From Nitrospira sp. CG24E (GTDB lineage: Bacteria > Nitrospirota > Nitrospiria > Nitrospirales > Nitrospiraceae), in contig NEWP02000014.1 in NCBI GenBank assembly GCA_002869895.2, positions 187,020-226,262 of the forward strand: a stretch of 39,243 bases of DNA. Direction: 5' to 3'. Positions 4,340-39,233 of this stretch are shown piece after piece. Every line of letters starts with the position of its first letter. Position 1 is the first letter of the stretch. The position numbers and the translations under genes were made by a program. The notes under the pieces were generated by a model. The model was not told where the DNA came from. It made no database searches and saw only the letters and a list, made by a program, of their open reading frames with translations.

Positions 4340-4463
4340 CGGGATGCTCAAAAAGGCTGTCAGCAAGGCCGCAGCCGATGAAAGCACCGGAGGCGTAGCC
4401 TTTGGCTACGTTGAGGATGCTTTCGAGGTGAGAACGAAGCTGGCGGACTTTTTCAGCATCCCG
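4340..4463 (-). repeat. ~124-bp terminal-inverted-repeat element, copy 1, abutting a stop codon
   Basis: The outer arms CGGGATGCT and AGCATCCCG pair perfectly and are followed inward by A-rich/T-rich continuations. The interior shares AGCAAGGCCGCA and GTGAGAACGAAGCTGGC with copy 2 (15742-15865) and, in diverged form, copy 3 (39111-39233). The element starts at the base directly after the TAG of the M50 gene at 4464. No ORF is inside. It looks like a MITE or REP-type element able to fold into a long hairpin. Confidence 0.85.
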
Positions 4464-5438
4464 CTAGCGAAATGAGAAGGGAACAGGCGCAAACGTCAGC
4501 ACAAACACCGCGAACGCAATCCATCCAACCATGACTCGTCCTCGGCCCAACGGGACATTAATATCGTGCACTGGTGGATGTCCGAAACCCCACAGTCCTG
4601 CCATGAAGGCCCATAGCCACCAGCCGGGCCATCCGATATATCCCAGTACAATGAGGATCGGCACCATGACAAACGCCATGGTGCGTTGGCGTGAGCCCCA
4701 GAGAGCGTAGGCGACGTGCCCACCGTCGAGTTGGCCGATGGGAAGGAGATTCAGCGACGTGACAAACAGGCCAAACCAGGCGGCAAATCCGATGGGATGC
4801 AAGATGATGTCGGCTTGGGGAGGGATCGATCCGACGACCAGCCAGGCGATGAACTGCAAGAGCAACGGTTCGCCCAACTGCATTCCATGGGTTGTCGTGC
4901 GATCGACGACCGTTGAGAGGTTCAGCCCGATGACTAGTGCCACGACCGCGGCGATGAAACCGGCCAGCGGACCGGATACCCCGATGTCGAACAGTGCCCG
5001 CCGATTCAGGATCGGCCCATGCAGTCGGATGATCGCTCCGAATGTGCCGATGAAATAGGGAGGGCCTGGAATGAACAGGGGCAGCGATGCCGGCACCCTG
5101 TGGATGCGGGAGAGTACATAGTGTCCGCATTCATGGGTGACCAGAATCACCAGCAGCGTGACGGCGAAGGGAATCCCCTGCCAGAGCATCGTGGGCTGTT
5201 CGATCAGAAAATTGACCGGTCCATGGATCGGTCCATTGTAGACTTGATAGGCCCCGGCCCACAGTGTGGTAAAGATCGTCGCGATAAAGAGACTGATGGG
5301 CAGTATCCACTTTGAAAAGGAGGTCTCCTCGAATTCCTCATCCGAAGGGAGATCGCTAGGGTTTGCAGGAGGCTCTGCCGCAACCGGCAGCTCTCTGCTG
5401 CGGATCGGCTGGTCGTCGCTCCGCTGATCGGGATTCAT
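4464..5438 (-). CDS. Site-2-protease-type M50 membrane metalloprotease
   Basis: A 324-residue polytopic inner-membrane protease of the M50 family (cytosol-facing active site in membrane). The zinc site HECGH lies in a membrane helix, and the third ligand motif is NLLPIGQLDGGH near residue 240; both are intact. The acidic, proline-rich first 50 residues are probably a cytosolic tail. The ATG at 5438 lies 10 bases after the stop of the upstream hydrolase gene; an in-frame GTG at 5489 would overlap that gene instead. Family members cleave membrane-anchored regulators or remnant signal peptides; the substrate here is not evident. It is the last gene of the run starting at pyk and is followed directly by repeat copy 1. 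Confidence 0.88.
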   Translation of the reverse strand: MNPDQRSDDQPIRSRELPVAAEPPANPSDLPSDEEFEETSFSKWILPISLFIATIFTTLWAGAYQVYNGPIHGPVNFLIEQPTMLWQGIPFAVTLLVILVTHECGHYVLSRIHRVPASLPLFIPGPPYFIGTFGAIIRLHGPILNRRALFDIGVSGPLAGFIAAVVALVIGLNLSTVVDRTTTHGMQLGEPLLLQFIAWLVVGSIPPQADIILHPIGFAAWFGLFVTSLNLLPIGQLDGGHVAYALWGSRQRTMAFVMVPILIVLGYIGWPGWWLWAFMAGLWGFGHPPVHDINVPLGRGRVMVGWIAFAVFVLTFAPVPFSFR

Positions 5439-5448
5439 AGTGCCGTCT

Positions 5449-6291
5449 TCAACGATCTTGCGCAAAGGGGTTGTGGTCGAGTTCTTCACGAACGGTCGTC
5501 GCTGGTCCGTGCCCCGGCAATAGAATACAATCGTGCGGTAATTTCATCAGGCGCTGCCGCACGGAATCCAGATGAGTGCTGTAGAACGTGTGGGGATTGG
5601 ACCGTCCAATCGATCCGGCAAAGAGGGTGTCGCCGACAAAACACACAGACTGCGACTCGGTATCGATCCGATAGCAGATACCGCCGGGCGTATGGCCCGG
5701 TGTCGTGAGGCAGCGAACGGTGAGTCCTCCTACCGGTATTGAACGCCCGTCGTTCGGAGCAGTAAGACGATCTTTCGAGGGTTTCCAATGCAGGAGGCTG
5801 ACATCATCAGTCCCCAAATAGACCGGAACCCGCCATCGTGCCAGGAGTTCTTGAATCCCCTCTGCGTGGTCCGCATGCCCATGTGTGAGACAGATACCTG
5901 TCAGCCGAATGCGATGAGATTCGAGCCAGGCGATCATGGCGGGAGCGTTGTATGCCGTGTCGATCAACAGGGCTTCCCCTCCGTCGTGCAGAATGTAGCC
6001 CTGCACTCCATAGCCGTTGATGGAGCCATGGATCGTTTCAACCCAGGTCGGCGTCTGTTGCGTCACCGGTTCCCATTTGTCGATTGCAACTTGCTCGAGC
6101 GGCGCAGATCGTAGCCCCAAGGCTTTCGCCAGTATCCGCACCTCGGCACGGCCCTGCGGTTGGCTTCCTCGTTCTAATGTTGCAATGTCTCCCTCGGACA
6201 GCCCCGTCGCATGAGCGATGTCGCTCACCGAGAGCCCCTGCCCCGTCCGTGCCTTCTTTAAGATGTCTGAAAAGTCGTCTTCAAGCGGCAT
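5449..6291 (-). CDS. XRE-type helix-turn-helix fused to a metallo-beta-lactamase-fold hydrolase
   Basis: About 280 residues in two parts. Residues 1-65 form a Cro/C1-type helix-turn-helix (LKKARTGQGLSVSDIAHATGLSEGDIATLERG). The rest is a glyoxalase-II-like metallo-beta-lactamase fold: THGHADH, then PGHTPGG, then FVGDTLFAGSIGR, then LPGHGPATT, giving all metal ligands of a two-metal site. GloB-like enzymes hydrolyse thioesters. A DNA-binding-like domain on such an enzyme is unusual; it could sense a metabolite, or be a degenerate protein-interaction domain. The ATG at 6291 is preferred over an in-frame TTG three codons upstream. It sits between the M16 pair and the M50 protease on the same strand, 36 bases after the former. 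Confidence 0.88.
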   Translation of the reverse strand: MPLEDDFSDILKKARTGQGLSVSDIAHATGLSEGDIATLERGSQPQGRAEVRILAKALGLRSAPLEQVAIDKWEPVTQQTPTWVETIHGSINGYGVQGYILHDGGEALLIDTAYNAPAMIAWLESHRIRLTGICLTHGHADHAEGIQELLARWRVPVYLGTDDVSLLHWKPSKDRLTAPNDGRSIPVGGLTVRCLTTPGHTPGGICYRIDTESQSVCFVGDTLFAGSIGRSNPHTFYSTHLDSVRQRLMKLPHDCILLPGHGPATTVREELDHNPFAQDR

Positions 6292-13317: not shown

Positions 13318-13437
13318 TATCGATCTGCTCATTCAGCTAGGGTAGGGAGCCCTATCGAGGCAAGAGATTTCCTTTATCAGCGAGGGTCGAGTAAGCCAGC
13401 GGGGTTTTTCAGTATCCGCTCATGAAAGGAGTCAGCC

Positions 13438-15741: not shown

Positions 15742-15865
15742 GCAGGCGGATCAAAACAGTTGTCCAGCAAGGCCGCAACGAGCGAGAGGCCGAGGCGTAC
15801 TTTCTAGTACGTTGAGGCCTTGAGTGAAGTGAGAACGAAGCTGGCGACTGTTTTCATCCGCCTGC
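15742..15865 (-). repeat. ~124-bp terminal-inverted-repeat element, copy 2, abutting a stop codon
   Basis: Outer arms GCAGGCGGAT and ATCCGCCTGC pair perfectly and continue with AAAACAG/CTGTTTT. The arms differ in sequence from copies 1 and 3 yet still pair, so the structure is kept although the sequence changed. The interior shares CAGCAAGGCCGCA, a central GTACTTTCTAGTAC-like stem and GTGAGAACGAAGCTGGC with copy 1. It begins at the base right after the TAA of the gene at 15866. Confidence 0.85.
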
Positions 15866-16096
15866 TTATTCGTCGTCCTCGTCTTCAGCGTCCAACACCT
15901 CCTGCCGTTTCTGCTCTTCCATAGCATTATGCAGCAGCATCCGGACAAACATCGAATAGAGCGAGCCTTTTTCCAGCGTCCCGCCTGGAGGAATGGCAAT
16001 CTTGCCTTCCTTGATCATCCGATCCATCCAGACCTTTTGATCGGGCGCAATCAAGATCGGAATCTCGATCAGCCCCACACGTCCCATCATGTCCAT
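15866..16096 (-). CDS. Small conserved acidic protein of unknown function
   Basis: A 76-residue protein, MDMMGRVGLIEIPILIAPDQKVWMDRMIKEGKI... with an acidic tail DAEDEDDE. The GGAGG ribosome-binding site 8 bases before the ATG at 16096 fixes the start; the frame upstream is just a short-repeat region. The central GTLEKGSLYSMFVRMLLHNAM helix suggests a small globular fold. No family recognised. Confidence 0.7.
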   Translation of the reverse strand: MDMMGRVGLIEIPILIAPDQKVWMDRMIKEGKIAIPPGGTLEKGSLYSMFVRMLLHNAMEEQKRQEVLDAEDEDDE

Positions 16097-16108
16097 CTTG
16101 CGACCTCC

Positions 16109-16255
16109 GTGAATCGTATTTCGTGAAGCGTATCTCGTTCTTCGCGCGGGACTCGCGAGAAAAGCGGGACTGCTCGGAAGTGTCATCTTCACGAGTCGCG
16201 CCTGTCGCGCACGGCTAGCCCGTCTCGCTCACAATTCACGTGCGACGAGATACGC
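16109..16255. repeat. 14-nt tandem plus 11-nt inverted repeat in an intergenic region
   Basis: Two 14-nt units starting GTGAAKCGTAT lie at 16109-16136. The second contains GCGTATCTCGT (16128-16138), and its exact complement ACGAGATACGC is at 16245-16255, so the stretch could form a long loop hairpin. It separates two divergent genes; function unknown. A related GTATCT-tatg-AGATAC hairpin lies at 15694-15709 just after hemL. Confidence 0.6.
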
Positions 16256-18232: not shown

Positions 18233-18562
18233 TAGCGAATAGTGTATAGCCGAGGATCGGGGAAAGTGTTGTCTGTCGGATAGCGAAGCCGATTCTCAGT
18301 CTTGGTAGTCCGATCTCTGACTCCTAGCCATTAGCCATACGCCATGGGCTCTCCTCTTTGCCCGAGCGGCGACCGCCGGGTCACGATTGGCATCCGAAGA
18401 GGGCGGTTTTATTGAGCATCCTGCCTGGTGTACTCTTATTAACCCGGACGCACGGTCAATGAAATCCTGGCGCAGCACGTTGCAGCTTTCGGGTTTGCTT
18501 GGAAAGATTCTTGGGCGTTGGTCTCGCGAGTCTGGGCGTCAGTGGGGAAGGCGGGGTTGGGA
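18233..18562. other. Intergenic stretch with a possible repeat-element remnant
   Basis: No supported gene is seen. At about 18411-18424 the 13-base string TTGAGCATCCTGC matches the outer end of the terminal-inverted-repeat element (as in copy 3), but no matching left end is found within 130 bases, so this may be a worn-down copy. Confidence 0.4.
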
Positions 18563-38804: not shown

Positions 38805-39110
38805 ATGTCGCTTGAATCTTCTTCGCATTTGCCCGGCGGGTTTCAAATCATGCATCGCACCCTTGGCATCTATCAGGGGAGTGCGATTGAGCTGGCATTT
38901 TGGTATCCCTCTTCGGGGATGCCTGAGTATGGGTTATGCCGGTTTGTCACAAAGGAGAAGGCTGAATCGTATTGTGCATACCTCTGTTCCCCCGCCTGTC
39001 CGGAGCCGCTTCATGAACAGGACCTCACTGTTCAACCCTATGATCTGGCTGCACACGAGGAACTCATCAACAACCATCCGCTTTCTTCTGCCTGGGAAAC
39101 TCCAATCTAA
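38805..39110 (+). CDS. Small protein of unknown function behind a palindromic operator-like site
   Basis: A 101-residue protein, MSLESSSHLPGGFQIMHRTLGIYQGSAIELAFWYPSSGMPEY..., with a ESYCAYLCSPACPEP segment. No membrane segment or recognised domain. The stop codon at 39108-39110 is directly followed by the terminal-inverted-repeat element, as for two other genes here, which supports the gene being real. Confidence 0.55.
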   Translation: MSLESSSHLPGGFQIMHRTLGIYQGSAIELAFWYPSSGMPEYGLCRFVTKEKAESYCAYLCSPACPEPLHEQDLTVQPYDLAAHEELINNHPLSSAWETPI

Positions 39111-39233
39111 CAGGATGCTGAAGAAGTCCTCCAGCGGCGTTCTCGCATCGTTCAGACCCTCAACGTACCCAGAGGGTACGACTCGGGCCTTCACTCGCTG
39201 CGGCCTGGCTGGACGAACTTTTTGAGCATCCTG
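39111..39233 (+). repeat. ~123-bp terminal-inverted-repeat element, copy 3, abutting a stop codon
   Basis: Outer arms CAGGATGCTGAAGAAG and CTTTTTGAGCATCCTG pair with a couple of mismatches. The interior has GCGTTCTCGCATCG and a central CGTACCC-agag-GGGTACG stem. It starts at the base after the TAA of the upstream gene and has the same orientation to that gene as copies 1 and 2. Confidence 0.85.

Follow-up and report, generated by a model that had tools for sequence, protein, structure and literature searches.

A Hairpin-Bearing Element, Very Probably an IS5-Type MITE, at Gene Stops in a Nitrospira Genome

Introduction

Nitrospira are major nitrite oxidisers. The window considered here, the whole analysed stretch of 39,243 nucleotides, comes from contig C6 of a Nitrospira-type genome of 3.45 Mb, and its end coincides with the end of that contig (226262). 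Three related copies of a sequence of about 123 bp occur in it, each behind the stop codon of a co-oriented gene (Table 1). The original prediction held that the repeat always starts at a stop codon, at zero distance and in a fixed orientation, and proposed either a mobile element inserting into 3′ ends or a structured element for transcript termination. The presence and placement of the three copies were confirmed, as was the observation that both arms of copy 2 had changed together. When homologous ends were compared, zero distance held for copies 1 and 3, while copy 2 lay one base away because of one extra G. All three folded much more stably than shuffled controls (z −5.5 to −7.1). Regarding the two partial traces reported earlier, the one near 18411 is real, corresponding to a decayed right arm plus tail, and the other (13394–13424) looks like a left-arm remnant.

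Table 1. Copies of the element, remnants, target sites, and adjacent genes in the window
Feature	Position	Strand	Remarks
Copy 1 (hairpin portion of the element, 123 bp)	4341–4463	−	Directly after TAG, with no base between it and the M50 peptidase stop; fold z −5.5
YTAR target CTAG, including the stop codon TAG of the gene of copy 1	4464–4467	−	
Peptidase family M50 gene preceding copy 1	4464–5489	−	Pfam PF02163, 71.6 bits
Probable left-arm remnant (CGGATACTGAAAAACCCCGCTGGC)	13394–13424	−	By eye only
Copy 2, 122-bp hairpin, co-varied arms (CAGGCGGATG / CATCCGCCTG-type)	15743–15864	−	One base from TAA; fold z −7.1
108-aa ORF; one base lies between its TAA stop and copy 2	15866–16192	−	No Pfam match
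Right arm plus tail, decayed, of a further copy (TTTTATTGAGCATCCTGCCTGGTGTACTC...)	18395–18480	+	Compared by eye with other tails
ORF of 101 aa, stop TAA abutting copy 3; end conserved in G015 and G019	38805–39110	+	No Pfam match
YTAR target CTAA, including the stop codon TAA before copy 3	39107–39110	+	
Copy 3 (hairpin portion of the element, 123 bp)	39111–39233	+	Directly after TAA
Beginning of the copy 3 tail (~75 nt), truncated where the contig ends	39234–39243	+	From tails of other copies

Sampling and Distribution

Counts for the window's own genome cover 2.27 Mb (66%), read as stretches, in which 2087 genes were called by a simple dicodon model of our own making. Right ends were located by consensus matching, since a strict regular expression missed most tails. 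More than 100 copies of the element were found in this genome, and the end motif occurred ~200 times genome-wide, both arms counted, versus once in a reversed control. Assembly gaps of 100 N were observed inside copies at C14:195357, C6:21587, and C20:31354, which indicates that the repeat breaks assemblies and that copy counts are low estimates.

The end motif also matches many Nitrospira MAGs. Of 296 sampled genomes from the phylum, 79 belong to the same family, and 77 of these carry the element, compared with only 10 genomes outside the family. A search of a plasmid collection with the element gave no match, nor did the Rfam covariance models, and a literature search returned no relevant paper on MITEs or repeats in Nitrospira and no earlier description of this repeat.

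Boundaries, Ends, and Target Duplication

The 123-bp unit, originally taken for the whole element, corresponds to its left part only. Both in relatives and in the own genome, several insertions run ~75 nt further to a second terminal repeat, which reads ...TTTTTCCGCA(G/A)CCTG and is followed by YTAR. The full element is thus a non-coding sequence of ~199 bp, bounded by CAGGnTGnnGAAAAA as terminal inverted repeats. Thirteen complete copies bearing both of these repeats measured 197–201 bp, although a recognisable right end was found in only a minority of left-end copies. The triplet TAR is found next to 65 of the 119 left ends and 18 of the 35 right ends, but next to only 4 of 73 inner (right) arms of the 123-bp hairpin, so the inserted unit does not end at this arm. 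In 13 of 18 full-length pairs, the same 4-bp YTAR stood on either side, compared with 8.5 expected if the two sides were unlinked (P 0.013), and intergenic copies also bear YTAR on both sides.

Element-free sites in relatives agree with insertion. At the junction between two genes that we take from the sequence to be phoH and ybeY, G015 and G019 are empty, with CATTAA running directly into TGCC, and G000 is filled, with CTAA at the far end. In the same way, the gene that we read as urtD (urea ABC transporter gene) already ends in TAG in the element-free G030 and G023, and further element-free orthologues end in TAA or TAG. Several others, however, end in TGA rather than TAR where the filled orthologues end in TAG, so that stop turnover or imprecise loss must be assumed for them. 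The proposal of a mobile element inserting at 3′ ends was therefore borne out by the terminal repeats, the YTAR duplication, the filled and empty sites, and the autonomous relatives with the same ends described below.

Variation of the interior was also noted. Among the 13 full-length copies, the total length of 197–201 bp is kept even where the interior is entirely different (L136), which may reflect a length constraint on transposition. In L272, L273, L287, C20:215745, and C20:217307, the ends are kept around a different interior, CTCGCGCAACGCGC...GCGCGCAGTTGGGATCATCCCA, a module that is a nested or swapped second repeat family.

Autonomous Relatives and the IS5 Link

Searching congeners for DDE_Tnp_1_6 revealed complete IS that share the MITE ends and the YTAR flanks (L296, L307, L304, and L297). 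Those of type A (L296 and L307) measure 1326–1327 bp with flanks and have the ends CAGGCTGCGGAAAAAC, like the right end of the main MITE type, whereas those of type B (L304 and L297) have the ends CAGGCTGTTGACAAAC, resembling the tail of GCTGTTGA-type MITEs. The type A transposases, together with that of L305, belong to the IS5 family (NCBIfam NF033581; 281, 267, and 237 bits against a cut-off of 140). The type B transposase is borderline, with 136–141 bits for IS5 versus 233–235 for IS1182, where the cut-off is 270. In Pfam, these transposases match DUF772 plus DDE_Tnp_1. One type B copy (L265, C14:77353) showed a 10-bp direct target repeat, ACTCAGATAG, at its far end in place of the usual CCTGCTAG, and the other copies looked at had no such 10-bp repeat.

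The published target of IS5 is likewise YTAR, with CTAG as the commonest form (PMC5493358, PMC10359306). Since the element has the same ends and YTAR flanks as autonomous IS of the IS5 family, it is very probably a non-autonomous IS5-type MITE with a YTAR target, which the DDE transposase of an autonomous IS would move in trans into YTAR sites. The own genome yielded no intact IS of this type, only a degenerate relative at C35, and its sampled contigs contained no long autonomous copy; judging from these sequences, this enzyme has probably ceased to move the resident copies.

Preference for Stop Codons and Orientation

The YTAR target explains most of the zero distance, since it contains TAA or TAG: an insertion through YTAR at the stop of a gene would leave that gene intact and place the element directly behind it. 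YTAR precedes 55 of 119 left ends, against a background of 0.33% of positions in the 2.27 Mb. Across the genome, the strict form of the original prediction failed, given that only 36 of 119 left ends lay exactly at a called gene stop and 7 of 35 right ends did so as well, the two kinds of end showing no difference in this fraction (P 0.78). The random pattern of distance and orientation that would have spoken against any stop association was not found either. Among the left ends preceded by YTAR, 25 were at stops and 30 elsewhere, and YTARs at stops were used in excess of those located 1–150 nt past a stop (odds ratio 5.5, P 3e-6) and of all intergenic YTARs (odds ratio 7.8). The association described as too strong for chance is real, but it follows largely from the target.

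Orientation proved to be biased rather than fixed. In tandem gene pairs, the hairpin end faced the upstream stop in 42 cases and the reverse in 16 (P 0.0009), and some species carry the element inverted. Convergent gaps were enriched (25 versus 14.8 expected, P 0.01), and divergent gaps, tested for depletion, were not depleted. The end of one gene, which we take to be of NUDIX type, has been used repeatedly, most species carrying either the hairpin element or another inverted repeat after its stop, in either orientation. Element-free orthologous gene ends often bore unrelated inverted repeats, such as the AAGGTTAAG...CTTAACC or CCAGATAGACC types, found at L395, L416, L413, and others and at L237–L259, as if a hairpin were required after the stop and its sequence were free.

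Hairpin Structure and Possible Co-Option

The hairpin formed by the left 123 bp is long, and its arms covary. In 55 copies, 24 of 41 pairs showed changes on both sides versus 13.4 in shuffles, which confirmed the expected covariation of the arms; sliding the hairpin partners abolished pairing, and arms matched their own partner better than the arms of other copies. A TTTT tract was present in the right arm of 45 of the 55 copies and an AAAA tract in the left arm of 46, the tracts pairing inside the long stem. This layout could terminate transcription in both directions, while a simple consensus terminator scan found none at or near copy 1.

Conservation between species differed among loci. The urtD hairpin of G000 is 91–94% identical to those of G015, G009, and G008, although at this locus third codon positions are only 58–77% and the next 60 nt 41–77% identical, and within the sampled part of the own genome two inner motifs of this hairpin are unique to it. 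By contrast, the mean hairpin identity of 16 orthologous pairs was 0.79, close to the paralogue baseline of 0.77. Conservation over all orthologous sites was accordingly discarded as proof of function, given that only urtD and a few others exceed that baseline.

It follows that co-option is plausible at some loci and unproven in general. Such loci would retain the hairpin as a putative bidirectional terminator or 3′-UTR structure, a proposal to which we give an even chance and which would account for the surplus of copies at stops and between convergent genes. The structured 3′-end element of the original prediction thus receives indirect support from covariation, from the enrichment at stops and in convergent gaps, and from urtD conservation. 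A bolder version, in which the MITE would act as a self-spreading putative terminator, delivering a bidirectional hairpin exactly to stops so that gene 3′ ends would be built and rebuilt by transposition and pairing kept by selection, is put forward tentatively and seems rather unlikely.

Alternative Explanations

The closest competitor shares the core of the preferred explanation and drops only the co-option. According to it, the element is a purely selfish MITE without host function, and both the stop excess and the hairpin result from target choice together with the purging of harmful insertions. The YTAR target explains the zero distance under this reading too, about half of the copies with YTAR flanks lie away from stops, the similarity of most orthologous hairpins is no greater than that of paralogues, and the covariation could have come from source elements or from template-switch repair of palindromes. 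Three observations fit it poorly, namely the excess at stops over YTARs just downstream of them, the convergent enrichment, and the conservation of the urtD hairpin. We consider it a serious contender whose chances fall somewhat short of even.

The other explanations depart from the IS5-type MITE itself. That the element brings its own TAG and replaces TGA stops would account for the element-free orthologues ending in TGA whose filled counterparts end in TAG; it is nevertheless improbable, being contradicted by the clean element-free sites with TAA or TAG at phoH, urtD, and others and by the YTAR on both sides of intergenic copies, even though several TGA orthologues remain unexplained. Less probable still is a palindrome of the REP/RAYT type, tagged with GTAG, moved by a Y1 (HUH) transposase, and inserted 3′ of a fixed tetranucleotide. 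A TAG adjoining one end, the hairpin structure, and three Y1_Tnp genes in the own genome recall such a system, and REPs of this type have been reported to supply TAG stops to ORFs (PMC3733652), but the terminal repeats, the YTAR at both ends, and the existence of DDE IS with the same ends oppose it, and none of the three Y1_Tnp genes is bounded by the ends of the element. A 277-aa RAYT-like Y1 transposase (L204, 1018–1047 and 2953) lies near AAAAAGGTGTCAGGAACC repeats, apparently a separate REP-like family. Equally remote is the idea of an ancient, vertically inherited 3′-UTR RNA that never moved: covariation and the occurrence in nearly all sampled genomes of the family would suit it, while the terminal repeats, target duplication, clean empty sites, matching IS, copies away from stops, and both insertion orientations at one site speak against it, as does the lack of an Rfam match.

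Comparison with Known Systems and Significance

The element constitutes a new family within a well-known class of MITEs, and its site bias is of interest. With IS5 and its MITEs it shares the IS5-family DDE transposase, the 4-bp YTAR duplication in which CTAG is commonest, and the terminal inverted repeats; it differs in its specific end sequence, its long internal hairpin, its more than 100 copies, its strong preference for stop codons among tolerable sites, and its occurrence mainly in one bacterial family. GTAG-tagged REPs are also palindromic, present in high copy number, and provided with a TAG at one end that supplies or abuts stop codons, whereas the present element is larger, is flanked by YTAR at both ends, and would depend on a DDE rather than a Y1 transposase. 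ERIC, NEMIS, and other transcribed MITEs differ from it in ends, targets, and hosts. Their likeness lies in a size of 70–300 bp, in terminal inverted repeats, and in folding within mRNA beside genes (PMC3733652). SPRITE, RUP, and BOX of Streptococcus pneumoniae, an unrelated host, are likewise small intergenic mobile repeats, some with terminator-like hairpins, and a term search of the review describing them found no mention of stop codons (PMC10969869).

The YTAR target provides a clear cause for the finding of a mobile element directly after stop codons. Its spread across the family also amounts to a natural experiment bearing on whether genes acquire terminators from transposons, and, if the tentative idea of a self-spreading terminator were true, much of the 3′-end architecture of Nitrospira genes would have been repeatedly rebuilt by transposition.
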